64,000 nt of DNA. Origin: Anadara kagoshimensis (taxonomy: Eukaryota > Mollusca > Bivalvia > Arcoida > Arcidae). Below the pieces are notes generated by a model, which saw only the letters and a program-made list of their open reading frames with translations, was not told the DNA's origin and searched no databases. Position numbers and translations under genes: made by a program. The stretch is taken from contig CM037865.1 in NCBI GenBank assembly GCA_021292105.1, positions 25,647,928 through 25,711,927 of the forward strand, read 5' to 3'. Below, in pieces: positions 10,650 to 54,985 of this stretch (positions are counted from its first letter, which is position 1; each line of letters opens with the position of its first letter).

Positions 10650-11590
10650 TGACTTGAAGCGGCATTTTTTAGTAAAAGTTGGTAACATACTTTTCTAACA
10701 TAATTTGAGGGTGCTGAATTCAAAAATGGCGGATACCAAGCTGAATTTTGAGTTTTTGAACCCATAATTCCAAAAACAAAATGGCGACTTAAATTTATGG
10801 TGTATCCTGCAAAAATGTTACTTGGGTGACAAATTTGTAAAAGTTGGTAACATGATTTATTTAACATAATTGGAGGGTGCTGATTCAAAAATGGCGGATA
10901 CCAAGCTGAATTTTGAGTTTTTGAACCCATAATTCCAAAAACAAAATGGCGGCTAAATTATGGTGTACCTGCAAAAATGTTACTTGGGTGACAAATTTTA
11001 GTAAAAGTTGGTAACATGATTTATTTAGCATAATTCGAGGATGCGAATTCAAAAATGGGATACCAAGCTAATTTTGAGTTTTTGAACCCATAATTCCAAA
11101 AAAAAATGGCGGCTAAAATTAATGGTTACAATGCAAAAAATGTTACTTGGGTTGAGAAATTTTGTAAAAGTTGTAACATGATTTATTTAACACAATTCGA
11201 GACTGATTCAAAAATGGCGATACCAAGCTCAGTTTTGAGTTTTTTAACCATAATTCCAAAAAAAATGGCGGCTAAAATTAATTGTACAATGCAAAAATGT
11301 TACTTGGGTTTCAAATTTTGTAAAAGTTGTAACATGATTTATTTAACACAATTGAAGGATCCGAATTCACAAATGGCAGATACCAAGCTCAATATTGAGT
11401 TTTTAACCATAATTCAAAAAAATGGCGACTATAGTGTACCATGCAAAAATGTTACTTGGGGTTTCAAACTTTAGTAAAAGTTGGTAACATGATTTATGTA
11501 CACTTGAGTCTCGAATTCAAAATGGGATACCAAGTAAATTTTGAGCTTTTGAACCATAATTCCAAAAACAAAATGGCGACTGTTTAAATT
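10650..11590. repeat. Tandem repeat of about 155-165 bp, about six copies
   Basis: Each unit contains TAAAAGTTGGTAACATGATTT, then AAAATGGCGGATACCAAGCT, TTTTGAGTTTTTGAACC and AATGTTACTTGGG. The GTAACAT landmark occurs at about 10682, 10847, 11011, 11172, 11329 and 11484. Units shorten and decay from left to right. The unit corresponds to the element's terminal and sub-terminal region. Confidence 0.85.
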
Positions 11591-17965: not shown

Positions 17966-18645
17966 AAACTGTCAGATATAAATAAACTGCACTTAATATG
18001 GACTTAACAATGAGTCCAAGAAGTCACATGAAGGAAGCATTTCAAATTCCCATCATTACTAATTTAATGATACTGTGCAATAGACTTATGTATGAATCGA
18101 AAGTTTATATTTTAATGCACGTGAGTAATGCGTATTCAAATGTGATATTTTTAAAATATTTGAATTGTCAGTTGACATCCTGAATGAAGTGTCCTATCTT
18201 CATCCGGAAAATAATACTTCGTTTTAAAATAAATCAGTGATGTGATGCAAGTGATGAACACATATATACACTTAATAAACATTAACTATTATATTACTAA
18301 ATCAGTTTTAATTTTGCAACACTAGACGGTTGTTTTGATATACAATTCCTCATCAGTAATCCACCAAAATTGTGGAAATCCGAAGCTTTAAGATATTGGA
18401 ATGATACAAATAGAAGGACCAAATCCACTAAAGGCAGTATTTTGAACGATAGAGCATATCTTATTTTTTCATAATTTTAAAATTTAAGAAACATTGTTTT
18501 TTTAACAATAACCTTGCTAAGCGGAGCAAGATACGCTCAGTTACACGTTTACCATTAAACTGTAATAAACATTGCATAAAATGATATAAATTTCAAAGGG
18601 GTACAACTCTTAGAAATCTCCTCTTCTTGCGCAAACAACGTCATA

Positions 18646-18887: not shown

Positions 18888-20055
18888 ACAGTACAGGCCT
18901 GTCGCAAGTTTGACACTGAGCTAACGAAAAGGAGTCGAACATCGACTGATGAGCGGTCGAGATATGGATACTGGGTAGCAAGTGACCGAAAAACTACCGA
19001 GCGTTGACGAGGTATAGCTAACAAAGGGGGGGGGGGGGGGCGAGCGAGATGAGCTGCCGATTCCGTATTTATTTCAAGTAATTCGTTTACAGTACAGGCC
19101 TGTCGCAAGTTTGACACTGAGCTAACGAAAAGGAGTCGAATCTCGACTGATGAGCGGTCGAGATATGGATACTGGGTAGCAAGTGACCGAACAACTACCG
19201 AGCATTGACGAGGTACAGTACAGGCCTGTCGCAAGTTTGACACTGAGCTAACGAAAAGGAGTCAAACCTCGACTGATGAGCGATCGAGATATGGATACTG
19301 GGTAGCAAGTGACCGAACAACTACCGAGCATTGACGAGGTACAGTACAGGCCTGTCGCAAGTTTGACACTGAGCTAACGAAAAGGAGTCAAACCTCGACT
19401 GATGAGCGATCGAGATATGGATACTGGGTAGCAAGTGACCGAACAACTACCGAGCATTGACGAGGTACAGTACAGGCCTGTCGCAAGTTTGACACTGAGC
19501 TAACGAAAAGGAGTCAAACCTCGACTGATGAGCGATCGAGATATGGATACTGGGTAGCAAGTGACCGAACAACTACCGAGCATTGACGAGGTACAGTACA
19601 GGCCTGTCGAAAGTTTAACACTGAGCTAACGAAAAGGAGTCAAACCTCGACTGATGAGCGATCGAGATATGGATACTGGGTAGCAAGTGACCGAACAACT
19701 ACCGAGCATTGACGAGGTACAGTACAGGCCTGTCGAAAGTTTAACACTGAGCTAACGAAAAGGAGTCGAACCTCGACTGATGAGCGGTCGAGATATGGAT
19801 ACTGGGTGGCAAGAGACCGAAAAACTACCGAGCGTTGACGAGGTATAGCTAACAAAGGGGGGGGGGGGGCGAGCGAGATGAGCTGCCGATTCCGTATTTA
19901 TTTCAAGTAATTCGTTTACAGTACAGGCCTGTCGCAAGTTTGACACTGAGCTAACGAAAAGAAGTCGAACCTCGACTGATGAGCGGTCGAGATATGGATC
20001 GATATAACTATCGAGCATTGACGAGGTACAGTACAGGCCTGTCGAAAGTTTAACA
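18888..20055. repeat. 126-bp satellite array with two longer units
   Basis: Units start at about 18888, 19088, 19213, 19339, 19465, 19591, 19717, 19918 and 20026 with the sequence ACAGTACAGGCCTGTCG. Most spacings are exactly 126 bases. Two units are about 200 bases long because they carry an insert with a G run of 13-15 and GAGCGAGATGAGCTGCCG. Internal units are nearly identical and edge units diverge more, as expected for homogenisation. Confidence 0.9.
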
Positions 20056-22254: not shown

Positions 22255-25173
22255 TTAGTTGGTTCTGTCTGCCTTTTTGCATTTGCATTTCGTCTGCTTG
22301 ACTTTGGAATAATACAGGCTCATCAACAGATCAAGCTGTTTTCTTAAAAGCATAAGTTCACTCACTAAAAATTTAGCTGTCATTGATGCGTTTAAATCAG
22401 CAAATAAAGTGTTCAAAATACTTCGGTTTGTCCCTTCTTTGAACCCGTTAAAAGCACTATATGGCCAACACAACAGAAACACCACTACGAAGTGAGCTGG
22501 GGTTATTTTGTTAAAGAGATCACATTTAACTTTAGCCGGACGTTCGCAGTCTGCCGATGCATTAGCGATTTCTCCCATTTTGTTCACATATGTTAAAGAC
22601 TTTTCATCAAGAATTTTGGAAAGCAAATCAAATAACTGTAATTCCTCAATGCCTATGAGGACTTTATGGATCGAACACTTGTGTTGTTGAGTTAAGTAAT
22701 CTGCTGGACAACATAGGTCCAGTTGTGTGGTTAAAATGGTCTGGTCAGGTTTTAGGTATTGTAGTCCTGTCTCCAATGCCTGGACTGCACCACGTACAAA
22801 CTCCTCTAGCTCTGGTGTGTTGGCTAGGTTCTTCGAAGTGTTCTCTTGTGAGAGCCAATCATCCCAGTGTTGAACAAACATGACCATATCACTGGCGCAT
22901 CCACATGGAAATGAAACACTGAACAAAGTAGATATTCTGAACAATATCAGTGAAGGGTTCTGGTCTAGTCTAGACATTGTCACATATCCTCTAGGATCAC
23001 CTGAAGTTGAAAATATTATTATTATTACACTCACTTTTTTACATGTTTGTATATTGTATTGTATTGTATTGTGTTGTATTGTGTTGCATTGTCTTGCATA
23101 GCATTGTATTGCATTTTACTGTGTTGGGTTGTATTGTACTGTGTTATGTTACTTAGTATTTGAATCGCATTGTATTGCATTGCATTGTGCTACAAAGTTT
23201 TGTATTGCATTGCATTGTATTGTATTGTATTGTATTGTTTTGTATTGTAGTGCATTGCATTGTATTGTTTTGCATTGTATTGTATTGTATTGTATTGTAT
23301 TGTATTGTATTGTATTGTATTGTATTGTATTGTATTGTATTGTATTGTAGTGCATTGTATTGTATTGTTTTGCATTGTATTGTATTGTATTGTATTGTAT
23401 TGTATTGTATTGTATTGAATTGTATTGTATTGTATTGTATTGTATTGTATTGTAGTGCATTGTATTGTTTTGTATTGTATTGTAGTGCATTGCATTGTGT
23501 TGTTTTGCATTGTATTGTAGTGCATTGCATTGTATTGTTTTGCATTGTATTGTATTGTATTGTATTGTATTATATTGTATTGTATTGTATTGTATTGTAT
23601 TGTTTTGTAGTGCATTGCATTGTTTTATATTGTGTTGCATTATACTCTGTTGCATTGCATTGTATTGTGTTGCATTGTATTGCATTATACTGTGTTGCAT
23701 TGCATTGTATTGTGTTGTATTGCATTGTATTGCATTATACTGTGTTGTATTGTATTGCACTGTGTTGTATCGTATTATATTGTTTTGTGTTGCATTGTAT
23801 TGGATTGTGTTGTATTGTATTCTGATGTATTGTTTTGTACTGTGTTACATTGTTTTGTATTGTTTCGAGTTGTGTTGTATTGGATTGTGTTGCATTGCAT
23901 TGTATTGTTTTGTGTTTCAAGAGTTGCATTGTGTTGCATGGCATTGTATTGTTTTGTGTTGCAATGTATTGGATTGTGTTGTATTGTATTCTGATGTATT
24001 GTTTTGTACTGTGTTACATTGTTTTGTATTGTTTTGTGTTGCGTTGTATTGGATTGTGTTGCATTGCATTGTATTGTTTTTGTGTTGCAAGAATTGCATT
24101 GTGTTGCAAGAATTGCATTGTGTTGCATGGTATTGTATTGTTTTGTGTTGCATTGTATTCTGATGTATTGTTTTGTACTGTGTTACATTGTTTTGTATTG
24201 TTTTGTGTTGTATTAGATTGTGTTGCATTGCATTATTTTGTTTTGTGTTGCAAGAATTGCATTGTGTTGCATGGTTATGTATTGTTTTGTGCTGCATTGT
24301 AATGTATTGTATCTTGTTGTATTGTGTTATGTTGCATTGTATTGTATTGTGTTATGTTGCATTGTATTGTATTGCATTGTATTACATTCTATTGTATTGT
24401 ATTATGTTGTGTTGCATTGCATTGTACTATGTTGCATTGTCTTGTATTGTATTGCATTGTATTACATTCTATTGTATTGTATTATGTTATGTTGCATTGC
24501 ATTGTATTGTATTATGTTGTGTTGCATTGCATTGTATTGTATTGCGTTGCATTGTACTGTGTTGCATTGTATTGTATTGCGTTGCATTGTATTGTATTGT
24601 ATTGTATATTTTATTGTGTTGCATTGTACTGTGTTGTATTGTATTGTATTGTATTGCATTGTGTTGTATTGTACTGCATTGTATTGTATTCAGGTTGTAT
24701 TACATTGCATTTTATAATATTTAATTGTATTGTATTGCGCAGTATTGTATTGTTAAGGCAAACAGCAGTGATCTATCCACTTGACCTTTTATTTAAATAT
24801 TTATCATGAACCAATGCATTTATGTATAGGAAAAACAAGTAAGTGATTATCTCGTCACACTGATTTAATACCAAGCGAAAATTATATTATGGATATTGTG
24901 TTATTTTGCATATTTTTTTAAAAAAAGCGCGATGTGTCTTAATTCCTATACCGCGAAAATAAATACAAGCCAAATTAAATACTTTTACAGTATGCATTAA
25001 TAATGAATCCTTTTACTAACCATGTATCGGGTGGATCATCCTATATGAATATTCCTAATGGAAGGTCAAACGTACATATCAGATCCATATCTATATTGTC
25101 GTGAATTGTATTGTTATGTTTAGTATTGTAAATGACTTGCAAGACATGGCAATAAATGAATGTGGTCCAACCC

Positions 25174-25209
<36 letters not shown>

Positions 25210-25845
25210 ACCTGTTGACTTGTCCAGAGCTTTCATGGCTTCAAACAAAAGCGGAAGCGGTATCCAATGTGGTGGGTACTTAAACCTAGCGGTGTCTAGC
25301 ATTAGAACCATGTCCTCCTCTGGGTGATATCCACCAACTGGAGAAAAATGTCCGTCCCCAGTCTGTTTTAAAACTTTTCTGGAATATGTTAGAATCAAGA
25401 AGCTATCGTCTCGTTTCGTGTATTCTCGAACCTTTTCTCTGAATTCTTCCTCAGAGCTCCTTTCATCAGCCCTGACAGCCACTGTACCAACGCCGTTGCA
25501 TTTTGCGAGGCACAAAAACTGATCAAACGTGATGCCGTCTTTCTCAATCAGTTGTAATGGAACGCAACAGTCTAGCATGTTCTCGTGGTACCAACGCCAT
25601 GGACCTTTCCAAACTTTTCCAGGGTCTATTTCGAGAGCATTTAGAATCATCACAAGAGTTGTAAGGCCACAAAAGGCTGGTTCTTCCTGGGTCCGAAATT
25701 GGGCGGCAAGTTTGAAGTAGCATTCCATGTGACCAGACGACATAGATTCAATAAATAATTTTTTTCCTTTTGGACTGGCAAAACTAATGCAAGAATCTGG
25801 CAATTGTCGTCTGTAAAATTGTCTTTTTGGAGAAAGTACATCCAT
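22255..25845 (-). CDS. Phytochelatin synthase (two exons)
   Basis: Exon 1 is 25845-25212 and exon 2 is 23000-22255; the junction joins in phase 1 (ACA-G / GT-GAT) and gives 459 residues. The enzyme transfers gamma-Glu-Cys between glutathione molecules to make metal-binding phytochelatins, in the cytosol. The papain-like catalytic domain (about 7-230) has the family's Cys-His-Asp triad: C59 in PAFCGLTTLVMILNAL, H166 in DGHFSPVGGYH, D184 in LMLDTARFKYPPHW. FYRRQLPDS near the N-terminus and the join STGDPRGYVTMSR are also family hallmarks. The C-terminal part (about 230-459) is divergent, as usual, with CC and CKCKK clusters that may sense metal. The start is the first ATG after an in-frame TAG. 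A possible acceptor (TTTTCCAG) 39 bases upstream leaves room for another 5' exon. The intron is filled mainly by a pentanucleotide repeat. Confidence 0.92.
23049..24760. repeat. Very long ATTGT/ATTGC pentanucleotide repeat
   Basis: About 1.7 kb made almost wholly of pentamers ATTGT, ATTGC and single-base variants, in the intron of the phytochelatin synthase gene. The central part (about 23210-23610) is the purest. Toward the right, longer mixed blocks (for example around CTGATGTATTG) recur as higher-order repeats. Long open frames through it in several phases, with YNTIQ- or VLYCI-type periodic peptides, are artefacts of a repeat lacking stop codons. Confidence 0.95.
24868..24996. mobile_element. 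Fragment of a MITE ending GTTTACAGTA-like
   Basis: Shares the GCGAAAATTATATTATG block, the CCGCGAAAATAAATACA block and the end AATACTTTTACAGTA with the fuller copy at 46042-46256. Confidence 0.5.
25172..25207. repeat. AG microsatellite next to a splice donor
   Basis: About 36 bases of AG dinucleotide, beginning within a few bases of the donor of phytochelatin synthase exon 1 (exon end 25212). On the transcript it is a CU-rich tract immediately after the 5' splice site. Confidence 0.9.
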
Positions 25846-25869
25846 CTTGGATGCGGCTATCAATGAGGC

Positions 25870-26500
25870 GTATCTCTGGAAAACTCGCTACAAAATTAGA
25901 ATGAAAATGCCATTTTATTCATTTTCTTAAATCTTCCATATTCTATTTTTACAAGTATCAAACAATAATTTTAAAACCAAGAGAAAAGGTATATGACACA
26001 ATCAAAAAATAAAACAATGCATCTAGTAACATGTTTTCAATCGTTGCTTGAAAGAGCATGGCGTGTTATCAGAATAATAAGCAAATCAACAGAGAGAGAG
26101 AGTCACAAATCACAATTACATGTACAAACGTGATAACTGCTTTGACTTCTGTCTGATTTACGCGTTTTTTCTGTAAAACAGTTTAAATTCTTACTTTAAT
26201 ACTTACCGCACTTGCCAAATAAGTATTTTTTTAAAGTTTTTTTTTCAAAATGTATATTCTTAAGTTCTTACCAATATGTTTATTCATCAATACGTGTATA
26301 TGATCATTTTAGACCAAATAATTCCGGAATGAGTCGGTAAAATTAAGACACCACTTTATATGTTTATTTTACCAACCAGATATTGTATCATAAAATGTAA
26401 ATCTTGACATTTATTGTCGGTTAAACATAAAGAATCCGATACAAGTGATCATAAATTATTATAGACACTAAAAGGTAAGTTTATGTACTTCTTATTAGTT
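25870..26500. other. Upstream flank of phytochelatin synthase
   Basis: Non-coding AT-rich DNA containing a short GA run near 26090. The promoter probably lies here. No metal-response element (TGCRCNC) in a convincing cluster and no clear TATA box were found by eye. Confidence 0.35.
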
Positions 26501-29291: not shown

Positions 29292-30115
29292 AGAACGGCG
29301 TCACTTAGTGTAGACAGCTTATCAAAACGCGTTAATAATAATTAGACAGCCCATAAGAAAGGTGTCATTGTAAGAACGGCGTCATTTAGTGTAGACGTTC
29401 ATCAGAACGGCGTCATTTAGTGTAGACAGTATCATAACGCGTCAATAATTAGTCTAGACGTAGGCAATTTATCAGAACGGCGTCACTTATAATGAAGACG
29501 GTTCATTAGAACGGAGTCACTTATAGTGTAGGCGGTTCATAAGAACGGCGTCATTTAGTGTAAACGGTTCATCAGATGGGCGTAACATAGTTTAGACGGT
29601 TGATTAGAACAGCGTCACTTAATGTAGACCAGAACGACGTCATTTAGTGTAGACGGTTCATCAGAACGGCGTCACATAGTTTAGACGGTTGGTTAGAACA
29701 GCGTCACTTAGTGTAGACCAGAACGACGTCATTTTGTGTAGACGGTTCATCAGAACGGCGTCACATAGTTTAGACGGTTGATTAGAACAGCGTCACTTAG
29801 TGTAGACCAGAACGACGTCATTTTGTGTAGACGGTTCATCAGAACGGCGTCACATAGTTTAGACGGTTGATTAGAACAGCGTCACTTAATGTAGACCAGA
29901 ACGACGTCATTTAGTGTAGACGGTTCATCAGAACGGCGTCACATAGTTTAGACGGTTGGTTAGAACAGCGTCACTTAATGTAGACCAGAACGATGTCATT
30001 TAGTATAGACGGTTCATCAGAACGGCGTCACATAGTTTAGACGGTTGGTTAGAACAGCGTCACTTAGTGTAAACCAGAACGACGTCATTAGTGCTGTTGG
30101 TTAATAGGAACGGCG
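29292..30115. repeat. GAACGGCGTCA minisatellite with 89-bp higher-order unit
   Basis: Basic units of 25-32 bp share GAACRNCGTCAYWTWGTNTAGAC. From about 29566 to 30080 they form a trimer of exactly 89 bases (landmark GGTTCATC at 29655, 29744, 29833, 29922, 30011). To the left the units are less regular. Confidence 0.9.
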
Positions 30116-30149
30116 TCAGGTTGCTTTAGCTGTTATAAAATGAAGAACA

Positions 30150-35107: not shown

Positions 35108-37040
35108 ATGTTTAAGTTTGTAAGAAATATTCTAATCTTTGGAATCACAATTTGTTTAGCTTCACTAACGCATCAATCGGTAAGCAATGCATCAAATTTT
35201 GTATAAAGAAATCAAAATTATTTTGATATTTTTATAAATTTGGTAATGGTTTTGTATTTAATTGTTTCAATACGTGTTTTCTTATTTCAATGTATTTTTG
35301 TTGCTTTGACTATTCCAGGGTATAGTCGTTTGTCTGTTTGCATGTCTGTACATTCTGTTACTATATCCCACGCAACGAAATTGCGAATGATATAATATTT
35401 TTACCCGTCCGTCTCTCTCTCCAAAAACGTGTTCCGCACTTTTGCCTGGTTTGTAAAACGCCATTCCACCACAACACCAAATCAATGATTTCATTCAAAT
35501 ATTTTAAACCGTTTGTCATGTATTTGTCCTCTAGTTAAAGATGTCAGTCAACGTTTTGGATAACTTTGTTTTAAGAAGAATGTCCGAAACCTATATATTA
35601 TGAATTGTCTTGTCTTGATGTTTTGGATAACTTCGTTTTAAGAAGAATGTCCGAAACCTATAAATTATGAATTGTCTTGTCTCGATGTTTTGGATAACTT
35701 CGTTTTAAGAAGAATGGCCGAAACCTATATATTATGAATTGTCTTGTCTCGATGTTTTGGATAACTTCGTTTTAAGAAGAATGTCCGAAACCTATATATT
35801 ATGAATTGTCTTGTCTCGATGATTTGGATAACTTCGTTTTAAGAAGAATGTCCGAAACCTATATATTATGAATTGTCTTGTCTCGATGTTTTGGATAACT
35901 TCGTTTTAAGAAGAATGTCCGAAACCTATATATTATGAATTGTCTTGTCTCGATGTTTTGGATAACTTCGTTTTAAGAAGAATGTCCGAAACCTATATAT
36001 TATGAATTGTCTTGTCTAAAACATTTCGCTATTTCTTATATTCACATACAGTAAAATACATTTTTGCCGGATTTTCCTGCTCAAATACAACCTTGTGTAC
36101 TTGATCCAAATATTATATGAACACAATGTATTTGATATCACCGATTCCAGTCCAACGTCCAGCTGTTTAATCTTCTCTTTTGTTATGCTTTCTGACGTCA
36201 TAAAGGACAGTGGTGGCTAAGTGGTTAAGGTGTTAGCCTTCAAACACAAGGCGTCTCACTGTTGTAGTTTCATCTCTTGTCGATTGCAAGATGAGCAATG
36301 TTTTTTCTCTCCTGGTTGATGTGGTACCAGCACTATGGAGAGAGTGGTGTTCTATGTTTATCTTTAACATTGTGGGTCAATGTACTAGTAAGATCGTCAT
36401 AAATGTACTCTAACAAAGCAGATCAGAAAAAACATTACAAAACCCAAACATCACACCATCTCGTGTTAAGATTAATCCTTGGGATTAACGAAAAGCGAAT
36501 TGCTGAAAAATGTGCTCATGATATGGCTTAAAACAACATTCAACTAACCAGTCTTCTATCTTAGTTGTTCTTTATTTGGGGTTGTATAATCAGCGGTGCT
36601 TTTGTCTTGTTCATTTTGTTGTTGTGTTCTTGGTGGTTTTGGTTATTGTCAAACTACAATAATCATTTATTTTTATATTACAGAATGATGAGGCAGGCTG
36701 TGATATAACCAAACAACAGGAATCATGCCAACCCGGGTATTGCTGTGCACGTGACGAATTCCTACCGGAACTGGTTTATTGTAAACGTATAGGTAAAGCT
36801 GGCCAGCCGTGCACTACGAAAGCATCAGAATCCGATTGCCCATGCGGTCCAGGTCTGTACTGCAGACCTAATGTGCAGTCCACATTTGCGTCCTTTTACG
36901 GACGATGTGCAGTTGTCCCACCAACCGATATGACGACCAAGAATGAGACAACGGATGCACAAAATTCAACGATGAGTCAAAATGTTACCATGGATATGAC
37001 CAGTGAGGGCCCGAGTGTTATGCCAGCGTTAGCCGGATAA
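35108..37040 (+). CDS. Secreted ten-cysteine peptide, prokineticin/astakine-like (gene 1)
   Basis: Exon 1 is 35108-35179 and encodes MFKFVRNILIFGITICLASL plus four residues, a signal peptide, ending in phase 0 before GTAAGC. Exon 2 is 36684-37040, after TTTTATATTACAG. The total is 142 residues. The mature part has ten cysteines in the prokineticin order: C-x8-C-x4-CC, then YCKRIGKAGQPC, DCPCGPGLYC and GRC. In that family five disulfides form a compact colipase-like fold, and members act as extracellular signals (in arthropods astakines promote blood-cell formation). After the last cysteine comes a Thr/Asn/Met-rich tail with several N-x-T/S sites, which is unusual. The N-terminal AVIT of vertebrate members is absent. 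Exon 2 has no initiator of its own, so it would be missed by start-based searches. The assignment rests on cysteine spacing and CPC-G-L-C, not on a database search. Confidence 0.8.
35550..36017. repeat. 67-bp tandem repeat in the intron of gene 1
   Basis: About seven copies of a 67-bp unit containing TTTTGGATAACTTCGTTTTA and GTCCGAAACCTATATATTATG. Units differ by single bases only, suggesting recent expansion. Confidence 0.93.
36207..36500 (+). repeat. tRNA-derived SINE, family 3-like
   Basis: The head GTGGCTAAGTGGTTAAGG (A box) with GCCTTCAAACACAAGGC resembles a tRNA-Ser-like start. The B box is weak. The body has GTGGTACCAGCACTATGG and lies in the intron of gene 1, just before its second exon. 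Confidence 0.55.
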
Positions 37041-38375: not shown

Positions 38376-38567
38376 ATGGTGTTCAACGCCTAATGAAGTC
38401 TAGAAAATTTCGACGCCTAATGAAGTCCAAAGATTGGGGCTTCAGACAAGAAGTCAAATTCAGTCTTTTAATTTTGAAAATGATTTTATTTTGCCTAAAC
38501 AATTTCTTGTCTGGAGCTCAATCTTTTAGATTTCATTAGGGGTTGGACTTCATTAAAAGTTCCTACA
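38376..38567. mobile_element. Small inverted-repeat relative of the palindromic element
   Basis: Its two halves are complementary: AACGCCTAATGAAG, GATTGGGGCTTCAGACAAGAA on the left, and TTCTTGTCTGGAGCTCAATC, CATTAGGGGTTGGACTTCATT on the right. It shares the CGCCTAATGAAGTCC motif and the GATTGGGGCT block with the large palindrome that follows directly. Confidence 0.6.
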
Positions 38568-38687
38568 CCGCCTTGTAACAACTCCTAATGAAGTCCGACG
38601 CCTAATGAAGTCCGGACTTCATTAGGCGTCGAAATTGCAACGCCTAATGAAGTCCGGACTTCATTAGGCGTTGACAATTTCGACGCC

Positions 38688-38940
38688 TAATGAAGTCCAC
38701 AGATTGGGGCTCAAGACGAGGAGACTTTTTGATATTACCAAAAAAAAGTCTCAAAATTTTACGACTTCAATTTAGACCAACTAGCAATAGCAACGTACAT
38801 TCAGGCACATACATCGTGTGCTTTGTGCAACCGTACCATACTCCCGCAAAATGTTTAGGGGGTATTTATACGAATCATCCTGTCCGTCCGTCGGTCCTTC
38901 CGTCCGTCCGTCCGCCCGTTCGTCAAAATATCGTGTAAGC
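38688..38940. repeat. GTCC-rich block within the left palindrome arm
   Basis: GGGGGTATTTATACGAATCA followed by GTCCGTCCGT repeats, resembling a repeat common in bivalves. The mirrored block is at about 41540-41830. Confidence 0.6.
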
Positions 38941-39114
38941 TTAAATATGTAGCTTCCATGTCTATGAATGTATTTTGATCAAACTTGAAACCAAAGTTAT
39001 TGTCCGTCTGTCCGTTCGTTCGTCCGTCTGGACGTTGGGAAAGGGATATATTTGTCTTTCCAAAGACCGTTATAGTTTTAGCTCTTTTTAGGGAGGCATA
39101 AAAGGTACCAATCG

Positions 39115-39120
39115 AGAATT

Positions 39121-39153
<33 letters not shown>

Positions 39154-39420
39154 CTGACTGACTGAAAGACTGACTGATTGATTGATTGGTTTGTTGAATG
39201 GTTTTTTTTTTTAGATCTAGTCAAGAATATTTACTTATATCGAGATGTCACCAGCTATAGATGGAATATTTGAAGTTTTTACCTTTGAGGTGCGTACAGT
39301 GTACAGGGAGGGTCTCCAACGAGCCATACTTTCTGTGATACATTGTTATCATGTAATGCATTGGTTTATCAAGTCTTTTCCGAAGGACCCCGTGACTTTC
39401 ATTGCTACATGTAAATGACA
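39115..39420 (-). repeat. SINE family 1 in the left palindrome arm
   Basis: The GATTGATT tail, the GATGTCACCAGCTATAG core and the CCCGTGACTTTCATTGCTAC segment (complement) are present. The tRNA head is lost. Its mirror copy is at 41095-41400. Confidence 0.75.
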
Positions 39421-39884
39421 TAAGCAACACCCTGCTATTGTTTTGCATTTTACAATATTTTAATCTTGCGTGCATTACCATGCATGTAATAAGGTGCCCA
39501 AAATATAATAATATTTATTTATTTATTTATTCTTATTTTTATCTATCTTCTCCGCTAAATTTCTCAACAAGGTTTCTTAGAATCCATCATACGTACATGT
39601 ATATGAAATCAAATGTGATTTTTCCCCCAAACTCCCGTGCTTACTTTATCATGTGATGGGTTTCATTAAGCTTCGAGGCAACAACATGGCTAACGATGTC
39701 CCATAGTATTTCATCCGTTTTAATCATAGTTTATGTGCAACAGATATATTTATTTTTACCATGAAAAAATAAAGTTTTGCAGTGGACTTTATATCAAGTG
39801 TTTTAATGAGTTAAACCGCAGAGGATCGTTGATATAAACAATATCTTGTTAGCAGTATTAGATAAAGTAGTAGTATACCTTTCT

Positions 39885-40620
39885 AAAGCTGAACTTCATT
39901 AGGCGTCGAGGTAACATAACGCCTAATGAATTCCCTTATTATATCTCGTTACATGTACATAGTGGACTTCATTAGGCGTCGGGGTAACATAACGCCTAAT
40001 GAAGTCCCTTACTTTATCTTACTACATAATGGATTTCATTAGGCGTCGAAGTAACTTAACGCCTAATGAAGTCCATTACTATATCTTTGTACATAGTGGA
40101 TTTCATTAGGCGTCGAAGTAACTTAACGCCTAATGCAGTCCATTACTATATCTTTGTACATAGTGGACTTCATTAGGCGTTACATTACCTCGACGCCTAA
40201 TGAAATCCACTTTGTACAAAGATATAGTAAGGGACTTCATTAGGCGTTAAGTTACCTCGACGCCTAATGAAGTCCACTATGTACAAAGATATAGTAATGG
40301 ACTTCATTAGGCGTTACATTACCTCGACGCCTAATGAAATCCACTATGTACAAAGATATAGTAAGGGACTTCATTAAGCGTTAAGTTACCTCGACGCCTA
40401 ATAACGTCCACTATGCACAAAGATATAGTAATGGACTTCATTAGGCGTTACATTACCTCGACGCCTAATGAAATCCACTATGTACAAAGATATAGTAAGG
40501 GACTTCATTAGGCGTTAAGGTACCTCCGCGCCTTATGAAATTTATTTTGTAATAAGATATAGTAAGGGACTTCATTAGGCGTTTTATGTTACCTCGACGC
40601 CTAATGAACTTCATCTTCAG
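39885..40620. repeat. Central array of hairpin units in the palindrome
   Basis: About eleven units of roughly 63-66 bp. Each unit contains GGACTTCATTAGGCGT and, after about 12 bases, ACGCCTAATGAAGTCC, so each is itself a hairpin with a 16-base stem. Units are separated by TATATCTTTGTACATAG or its complement. Orientation switches near 40170-40240, the centre of the whole element. Confidence 0.92.
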
Positions 40621-41094
40621 AAAGGTATACTACTACTTAATCTAATACTGCTAACAAGATATTGTCTATATCAACGATCCTCCCCGTTAAACTTATTAAA
40701 ACAGTTGATGTAAAGGCCACTGCAAAACTTTTTTATCATGATAAAAATAAACATATATCTGTTGCACAAAAACTATGATTAAAACGGAGACTTTTAATAA
40801 GATGAAATAGTATGGGACATCGTTAGCCGTGTTGTTGCCTCGAAGCTTAATGAAATCCATCAGATGATAAAGTAAGCACGGAAGTTTGGGGGAAAAATCA
40901 TATTTGATTTCATATACATGTACGTATGATGGATTCTAAGAAACCTTGTTGAGAAATTTAGCGGAAAAGATAGATAAAAATAAGAATAAATAAATAAATA
41001 AATATTTTTTATTTTTGGGCACCTTATTACATGCATGGTAATGCACGCAAGATTAAAATATTGTAAAATGCAAAACAATAGCAGAGTGTTGCTA

Positions 41095-41372
41095 ATGTCA
41101 TTTACATGTAGCAATGAAAGTCACGGGGTCCTTCGGAAAAGACCTGATGAACCAATGCATCACATGATAACAATGTATCACAGAAAGTATGGCTCGTTGG
41201 AGACCCTCCCTGTACACTGTACGCACCTCAAAAAAACTTCAAATATTTCATCTATAGGTGGTGACGTCTCGATATAGGTAAATATTCTTGACTAGATCTA
41301 AAAAAAAACCATTTAACAAACCAATCGATCGATTAATCAATCAGTCAGTCAGTCAGTCAGTCAGTCAGTCAG

Positions 41373-41400
<28 letters not shown>
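41095..41400 (+). repeat. SINE family 1 in the right palindrome arm
   Basis: AATGAAAGTCACGGGGTCC, the GGTGGTGACGTCTCGATATA core and the CAATCAATC tail. It is the mirror of the copy at 39115-39420. Confidence 0.75.
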
Positions 41401-41403
<3 letters not shown>

Positions 41404-42019
41404 ATAATTCTCGATTGGTACCTTTTATGCCTCCCAAAAAAGAGGTAAAACTATAACGGTTTTGGAGAGACAAATACCTCCCTTTCCCAACATCCAGACA
41501 GACGAACGGACGGACAGACGGACAATAACTTTTGTTACATGTTTGATTAAAATCCATTCATAGACATGGAAGCTACACATGTAAAGCTGACACGATATTT
41601 TGAAGGACCGACGGACAGACGGACGGACGGACGGACAGGGTGATTCGTATAAATACCCCCTAAACAATTTTTCGGGGTATGGTACGGTTGGACAAAGCAC
41701 ACGATGTATGTGCCTGAATGTACGCTGCTATTGCTAGTTGGTCTAAATCGAAGTCGTAAAATTTTGAGACTTTTTTTTGGTAATATCAAAAAGTCTCCTC
41801 GTCTTGAGCCCCAATCTGTGGACTTCATTAGGCGTCGAAATTGTCAACGCCTAATGAAGTCCGGACTTCATTAGGCGTCGGACTTCATTAGGAGTTGTTA
41901 CACCGCCTGTCTATACAGACCGGTTTTATAGATCACGTATCTGGTCTTTACATAGTGACTGTATACATATGCAATGTTAGATTCAGAATCGCTTTGACAG
42001 TATTACATATGTTCAGTTA

Positions 42020-54137: not shown

Positions 54138-54985
54138 TTATACGCCCGTCATATGACAGGACGTATTATGTTACGGTGCTGTCCGTCCGGGCGGGCGGGC
54201 GTCTGTTAACAATTTGTATTCCGTTCAATAGAGACCACAAACATTTATGGATTCAAATGAAATTTGGTATACAGCTTTACCATGGTAATACCTGGTGCAA
54301 GTTCGAATTACAACTTTTTCGGATAATTTTTGGAGGAGTTATGCCCCTTTTTTAACTTAGAAATTTTTGTATGTATGACCATGTGGTTTCCGATCATTAG
54401 AGCCTACAACTATTTATGGATTCAAATGAAATTTGGTATACACATTTAGGATGTTAATATCTGGTGCAAGTTCGAATTACAACTTGTTCGGATTATTTTT
54501 GGAGGAGTTATGCCCCTTTTTTAACTTAGAAATTTTTGTATGTATGACCATGTGGTTTCCGATCATTAGAGCCTACCACTATTTATGGATTCAAATGAAA
54601 TTTGGTATACAGCTTTACCATGGTAATACCTGGTGCAAGTTCGAATTACAACTTTTTAGGATTATTTTTGGAGGAGTTATGCCCCTTTTTTAACTTTAAA
54701 TTTTTGTAGGTATGACCATGTGGTTTGTATTCCATTCAGTAGACAATACAAACATGGATTTAAATGAAATTTGTTATACAGTTACACCTTAATCATGGTA
54801 ATATCTCGTGCAAATTTGAATTACAACTTTTTTGGGTTACGAGTTATGGCCCGAACACAGAGTTGGTAATATATTTTTACATACATATATCCTAGTTGTA
54901 CTTATACTTCTCAGTAAATAGTACTACTCGATCAATATAACACGGGCGTATAATGCTCCGCTCGGCGGTGCTCTTGTTTTATATT
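54138..54985. mobile_element. Bivalve-type MITE with internal 169-bp repeats
   Basis: The left end TATACGCCCGTCATATGAC and right end ACGGGCGTATAATGC share an 11-base inverted repeat. The right side continues with CTCCGCTCGGCGGTGCTCTTG. This layout is familiar from common bivalve repeats. The interior holds three near-identical 169-bp units and a fourth diverged one. Confidence 0.7.
54243..54760. repeat. 169-bp tandem units inside the MITE
   Basis: The landmark ATTTATGGATTCAAATGAAA is at 54243, 54412 and 54581. Units also share GGTGCAAGTTCGAATTACAA and GGAGGAGTTATGCCCC. Confidence 0.9.

Follow-up and report, generated by a model that had tools for sequence, protein, structure and literature searches.

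A family of palindromic foldback elements with a central hairpin array in the genome of Anadara kagoshimensis

Layout of the element and its insertion site

The stretch of DNA analysed here, referred to as the window, comprises 64,000 bp of contig CM037865.1 of the bivalve Anadara kagoshimensis (positions 25,647,928 to 25,711,927, forward strand). It contains a palindromic element of 3,329 bp at positions 38574-41902, which starts with TGTAACAACTCC and is closed by the exact complement of this sequence, GGAGTTGTTACA. The hexamer CCGCCT lies directly outside both ends (38568-38573 and 41903-41908). An earlier note on this DNA had reported the mirrored ends and read the flanking hexamer as an exact target site duplication, and both were seen at these places. 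Its statement that the two halves are near-exact inverses throughout holds in part: the element is palindromic from end to end, but the identity to its own reverse complement is 89.3% with gaps (3,311 columns), and 94-96% is reached only where gapless pairing of the arms extends furthest (96% in a block of 432 nt, 94% in one of 281 nt); two further gapless pairs, of 149 and 124 nt, are less alike (87% and 90%, respectively). No open reading frame (ORF) of more than 93 amino acids overlaps the element. Its terminal repeats are inverted and not direct, which does not fit a long terminal repeat (LTR) retrotransposon. The features are as follows (loci outside the window carry L numbers).

38380-38567, no strand: older, diverged small relative of about 188 bp with TGT...ACA ends; left boundary and rough palindromic form read by eye
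38568-38573, no strand: left 6-bp target site duplication CCGCCT, present as a single copy at the empty site L071
38574-38585, plus strand: left terminal inverted repeat TGTAACAACTCC, shared with the family ends
38582-38698, no strand: left subterminal cluster of the 15-bp motif, six sites at one mismatch or less, both orientations (motif scan)
38614-38698, no strand: nearly perfect hairpin inside the left cluster (left element end folded as DNA: -48.3 kcal/mol, z -14.3)
38699-39892, plus strand: left arm, lineage B, without the 14-bp diagnostic insert (arm alignment and tree)
39121-39410, minus strand: SINE-derived stretch of the left arm, outer limits approximate, with an (ATTG)n run at 39121-39188 and the conserved core at about 39219-39287
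39893-40608, no strand: central array of 67-bp units, mirrored in orientation near 40165-40208
40609-41819, minus strand: right arm, lineage A, with the 14-bp diagnostic insert near 40788-40801 (arm alignment and tree)
41092-41402, plus strand: SINE-derived stretch of the right arm, outer limits approximate, with core and (CAAT)n run at 41322-41402
41820-41894, no strand: right subterminal cluster of the 15-bp motif, four sites at one mismatch or less (motif scan)
41891-41902, minus strand: right terminal inverted repeat GGAGTTGTTACA, shared with the family ends
41903-41908, no strand: right 6-bp target site duplication CCGCCT, matching the left one

The element has no unique middle, its centre being formed by the mirrored array. 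In each 67-bp unit, two 15-bp motifs (GGACTTCATTAGGCG) in inverted orientation make up a 44-bp hairpin, the remainder being a spacer; one unit folded as single-stranded DNA gave -14.4 kcal/mol (z -6.8). At three mismatches or less, the motif or its complement occurs at 38 sites of the window, compared with a mean of 0.9 in 20 random sequences matched for dinucleotide composition. All but one of these sites (37) are located within 38387-40858 or 41820-41894, and the motif also clusters just inside both ends of the element.

The presence of a SINE (short interspersed element) in each arm, claimed previously, was borne out. The arms hold the core and the (CAAT)n run of a repeat, with the run placed like a SINE tail. 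The 30-bp core of this repeat was found at 18,012 places of the genome (8,970 + 9,042; one mismatch or less; control 0), and the window has seven further matches to the arm piece at about 39219-39287. A tRNA head was not recognised for the SINE piece by Rfam (0 hits at gathering scores) or ARAGORN (0).

The identity of the flanks in fact extends to 10 bp (TACACCGCCT), since the element is bordered on the left by the small diverged relative, whose sequence also ends in TACA (...CTACA). The length of the duplication is fixed as 6 bp by the rest of the family and by the empty site, where CCGCCT occurs once. No matching duplication was seen around the small relative at 38380-38567. The relative is found at the empty site too and is hence the older of the two; the palindrome entered CCGCCT right beside it.

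Family copies, target duplications and empty sites

The assembly to which the window belongs (1.115 Gb, 36 contigs) was searched for further copies. A 22-bp end sequence was present in 342 forward and 337 reverse exact copies, with none for the reversed-pattern control, and no match was obtained in viral contigs. Places at which the base after TGTAACAACTCC is not T numbered 146, against 60 in the control; this excess may represent mutated copies. The first 100 ends listed contained 18 close pairs spanning 80-4,641 bp. Together with six more copies met at lone ends and the window element, these pairs make up 25 two-ended copies, of which 20 are flanked by exact 6-bp duplications and three by duplications with one mismatch. 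The exact duplication of L031 sits in a CAG microsatellite and is uninformative. Among 23 duplications, G at position 3 (17/23) and C at position 4 (18/23) were preferred, giving a target of approximately NNGCNN. CCGCCT immediately precedes a family end at four places genome-wide.

The window copy covers 98-100% of each of 21 other elements compared. Long elements (2.3-4.6 kb) consist of two arms of about 1.3 kb around a mirrored array of 67-bp hairpin units, whose orientations were counted with a loose pattern, so that single out-of-place units were taken as noise. Including the window element, 11 of the 12 long copies are self-inverted at 92% or more, the exception being L018 (67%). Ten short elements (67-1,196 bp) retain mainly the ends; six are wholly self-inverted and four at 48-77%. 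The duplications and flanks of L009 and L011 differ, yet one 432-bp arm block is 99.8% identical between them and long stretches are alike at 98.6% and 96.3%, indicating fairly recent movement. In L030, an older copy of the family, another repeat with AGTCTCACTTAGCATACAT inverted ends (1395-2762) is nested in the hairpin array. The short copies L006 and L026a are located within or next to sequence that resembles tRNA by eye (GAGCAC/TCTACCAACTGAGCTA). A 16-bp motif gave 16 single matches in prokaryote contigs, which we took as chance.

For the identification of empty sites, both flanks of a copy were joined around one duplication and matched to the genome. From 23 prepared junctions, L013, L014, L019 and L031 were left out, and L021 and L025, which are without matching duplications, were never joined. 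The first search yielded junction-spanning matches at four of nine sites: the window (90%), L009 (100%), L017 (100%) and L018 (83-94% at 21 places). In the second search, two of ten sites were matched, L026a (97%) and L022 (85-94% at 41 places). Empty counterparts thus exist for at least 6 of the 19 sites searched; scoring covered 40 of 746 candidates in the first search and 40 of 2,805 in the second, and L022 alone took 41 of the 43 matches of the latter, so that 6 of 19 is a lower bound. The empty counterpart of the window element (L071) lies on the contig of the element itself, at a distance of about 764 kb; CCGCCT is present there once, and each flank is about 89% identical. L072 is the empty site of L009: the joined flanks are 98.9% identical over 967 bp with no match to the element. 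At 6.01-6.88 Mb of contig C3 of the assembly, the family ends are arranged approximately as a mirror image, and the counterpart of the L017 site in the other half is empty; perhaps this reflects a large inverted duplication or a haplotype artefact of the assembly.

The search for other units with 6-bp duplications, proposed along with the original description, was thus successful, and the case in which neither other copies nor empty sites exist can be set aside. In agreement with that description, the element is mobile and moved as a whole unit with the duplication outside. Perfect inverted copies are a known fault of long-read data, and a hairpin read or a collapsed repeat could in principle have produced a false palindrome. 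An assembly artefact of this kind is scarcely credible here. Differences between the arms amount to about 5% (as much as 10% in blocks) and follow a pattern common to independent loci, and 11 of the 12 long copies are self-inverted at separate places with their own duplications, in addition to the existence of empty sites.

Two arm lineages and the origin of the palindrome

The arm block next to the array exists in two forms, A with a 14-bp insert and B without it, which also differ by several linked substitutions. In a tree of 25 arms, lineage A formed one side of a branch with a support of 100/97; incompletely covered arms (L010 left, L004, L022) were excluded, and L003, L010 and L018 contributed one arm each. 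Every element with both arms typed (11/11) carries one A and one B arm. Read from left to right, B precedes A in the window element and four others, and A precedes B in the remaining six, as insertion in both directions would produce. A and B diverge in two blocks (identity 0.92 between and 0.96 within lineages) and little elsewhere. In the proximal block, A and B arms of one copy have an identity of 0.919 and those of different copies 0.918, and the overall arm identity, calculated without the microsatellite columns 560-880, is 0.9474 for arms of the same copy compared with 0.9461 expected from random pairing. This pairing of A with B and the near-equal identities within and between copies argue that the palindrome predates the amplification and that its arms travelled together. 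Judged by the arm lineages, the palindrome arose once, in an ancestor, before amplification. All arms of the 11 two-armed elements but one, the A arm of L016, contain the SINE core (21 of 22), which was therefore captured before the arms doubled, as had been proposed. The arms are hardly homogenised within copies, and conversion within copies is at most minor; gene conversion between arms, which the earlier note offered as one possible maker of the palindrome, is not supported by these data as its maker or keeper.

Taken together, very long inverted ends, internal repeats, a duplication of fixed length and dispersed copies, the structural marks of foldback elements, were all found. We therefore regard the window element, with a probability of about 0.87, as a member of a family of non-autonomous foldback DNA transposons, whose palindromic ancestor multiplied by means of a transposase from elsewhere. 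Foldback elements as such are already well known, and this is a new family of that known type; a check for described families, made by paper text alone, gave no match to three stretches of the element sequence, and a literature search on wholly palindromic transposons brought up papers on other subjects.

Several observations weigh against this reading. Among the first 100 ends listed, 64 were without an exact partner close by in the list, and some of these were inspected; two of the 25 two-ended copies carry no duplication; and the short copies L024 and L025 are self-inverted at only 58% and 48%. A limited search found no transposase gene inside any copy or beside a matching end. The long palindrome L033 is missing its right terminal bases, and L007/L064 and L032/L065 are without a right end at one mismatch or less within about 7.9 and 10 kb. 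Arms of the same element are slightly more alike than random pairs (excess 0.13%, p ~0.005), which could result from shared ancestry of copies or rare conversion. A distal 14-bp stretch usual for B is carried by the two arms of L015, L017 and L026b alike, and the window element lacks it on both sides; this pattern reflects some exchange between arms, or separate loss.

The absence of the distal stretch from both window arms, together with a slightly higher identity of same-copy arms in the mid-arm region (0.958 versus 0.956, p ~0.018), would also be expected if each copy had been made palindromic independently, by snap-back synthesis or by gene conversion between its arms. We consider such independent origins very improbable, since all 11 typed elements retain A and B and the proximal A-B identity is nearly the same within and between copies. 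For the whole arm this explanation is contradicted; local conversion tracts are possible.

Long palindromes are expected to be unstable, or to be kept alike in their arms by gene conversion. Here, palindromes of 2.3-4.6 kb kept two arm lineages apart during amplification, which can be tested across many copies together.

Relation to known elements and the source of the transposase

Among known palindromic transposons, Tc4 and Tc6 of Caenorhabditis elegans resemble the family in being almost wholly palindromic (1-2 kb), whereas their ends and target differ and a central array of hairpin units is not known from them. The P element itself makes 8-bp duplications, and FARE is a foldback element of the Mutator type. 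Galileo 2-TIR elements of Drosophila (P superfamily; PMC3573991, PMC3688188) likewise consist of almost only long inverted ends with variable internal tandem repeats, and clustered short transposase-binding motifs, proposed to confer specificity, as well as chimeric copies have been described for them. However, Galileo has 7-bp duplications, direct repeats of about 210 bp within its ends and a known transposase sequence (PMC3573991), while the present family has 6-bp duplications, which does not fit Galileo or P, together with a mirrored central hairpin array, other ends and no coding copy found. Tetris/DAIBAM of Drosophila virilis (PMC4079207) is similar as an apparently non-autonomous foldback element with tandem repeats and a short relative with the same ends. 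In contrast, its repeats became satellite arrays, whereas a 22-bp piece of the 67-bp unit was found at 248 + 234 exact places, of which the first 100 listed fall in element-sized clusters; nothing listed suggests that the unit has grown into a satellite. Tm1 of root-knot nematodes (Mutator type; PMC3169594) shares composite inverted ends, internal short repeats, MITE-like (miniature inverted-repeat transposable element) forms, duplications in most copies and arms that are on average about 93% alike within an element. It differs by duplications of 8-10 bp (mostly 9 bp), in that no target preference was seen, and by a known transposase-coding form; the 6-bp duplication found here does not fit a Mutator-type foldback element. 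As described, none of Galileo, Tetris and Tm1 has the mirrored central hairpin array that sets the present family apart.

Candidates for an autonomous partner were examined at unpaired or inexact ends. Short palindromes whose right ends are inexact were found at L006/L028, L027/L029 and L031. L030 is the older, diverged copy with the nested repeat, and L033 is a long palindrome; at L003 and L004, 1.5 kb past the end was examined. None of the frames of L007, L027, L028, L030, L032, L064 and L065 was transposase-like as judged by eye, with no profile search. We also searched for integrases using the NF033577 model (68 of 1,717 candidates scored) and the integrase domain of L034 (150 of 1,358 scored). 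The matches resembled integrases of retroelements, Ginger-like elements (L034/L068; L058-L062, 42% identical to L034/L068; L089) and Polinton-like integrases (L069, L070). Neither the family end (one mismatch or less) nor the 15-bp motif (two mismatches or less) was detected in any of the 36 integrase-related loci scanned, most of which cover only 1.5 kb on each side; the 12-bp end at two mismatches occurred in 19 of the 36, which we took as chance.

Two of these loci contain integrase transposons in their own right (Pfam was run on L034 and L089 only). The Ginger-like element of L068 (445-8227) has an integrase and an OTU protease frame, identified by Pfam on L034 at the same place; its inverted ends are packed with a CACAAATGTAGTAA-type repeat, and GGGGA lies outside both ends (by eye). 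The element of L089 (376-3398) has an H2C2 match, an rve match under the Pfam cut-off and 173-bp inverted ends of GTACAGGTTATAACCTGTAC-type palindromes; a clear duplication was not seen.

A transposase of the integrase type, from a Ginger or a GingerRoot/IS3EU-like element, would refine the foldback reading rather than oppose it. The TGT...ACA ends and the 6-bp duplications point weakly to such a source: GingerRoot elements have 6-bp duplications with TA..TA or sometimes TG..CA ends (PMC10045372), the latter leaving room for the family, and IS3EU as described always ends in TA..TA and is thereby excluded. Open-frame integrase transposons with repeat-packed ends, L068 (TGT...ACA ends, TGTGGGACCCC) and L089, also occur in this genome. 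On the other hand, GingerRoot and IS3EU ends are mostly TA..TA, neither a transposase nor matching ends link either group to the family in the loci scanned, the duplication of L068 is 5 bp, and 6-bp duplications are listed for Polintons as well (PMC10045372). On balance an integrase-type source is plausible, at somewhat less than even odds.

The last of these points is compatible with a derivative of a Polinton/Maverick that consists of its terminal repeats alone, and the family has both the long inverted ends and the 6-bp duplication of such elements. Polintons encode polymerase, integrase and capsid genes, and their ends start with AG, not TG, which counts against a Polinton origin. The lack of any ORF above 93 amino acids excludes a full Polinton, but not a terminal-repeat-only derivative. 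Polinton-like genes are present in the genome (L069, L070; frames judged by eye), and the family end at C2:6744130 has two integrase matches at distances of about 11 and 20 kb, although neighbours of this kind are to be expected by chance according to a rough calculation by hand. Neither the motif nor the end was found in the two Polinton-like stretches (4.7 kb each, with the termini beyond them). We therefore hold a Polinton derivation to be rather unlikely.

For the foldback family itself, the following course of events can be envisaged. An arm of about 1.3 kb already bearing the SINE fragment would have undergone inverted duplication to an end-to-end palindrome, and it was this palindrome as a whole, rather than a single arm, that multiplied, as the arm lineages show. 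Each copy would be cut or copied as DNA by a DDE transposase acting in trans, which may bind TGTAACAACTCC and probably also the clustered 15-bp motif, by analogy with the repeated THAP sites bound by the Galileo transposase (PMC3688188), and may cut at TGT/ACA. Joining would take place into a 6-bp staggered cut at NNGCNN-like sites, consistent with the duplications and their target preference. Thereafter the central array would grow or shrink copy by copy, and interior deletions would give rise to short palindromes that are still mobile, as the structures of the copies suggest. A more far-reaching proposal, which we consider doubtful in its entirety, is that of a long palindromic transposon that spreads almost or entirely without conversion, keeping two lasting arm lineages and a mirrored hairpin array, and is moved by a GingerRoot-like integrase-type transposase. 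The family would then be a palindromic branch of that group, and the element hardly more than a framework of binding sites, from which long double-stranded RNA could readily be produced. Its copies are candidate loci for hairpin-derived small RNAs, and the size series from 67 bp to 4.6 kb offers natural material for defining the minimal sequence that a foldback element needs to move.

Elsewhere in the window, an exon-like phytochelatin synthase frame is located at 25123-25887 on the minus strand (PF05023, E 1e-87), beside a 1.7-kb array of about 340 units of the pentamer TATTG (23052-24753). Further tandem arrays with units 85-98% alike are present at 10668-11581 (165-bp units), 19088-19845 (126 bp), 29542-30118 (89 bp), 35553-36017 (67 bp) and 54219-54726 (169 bp).

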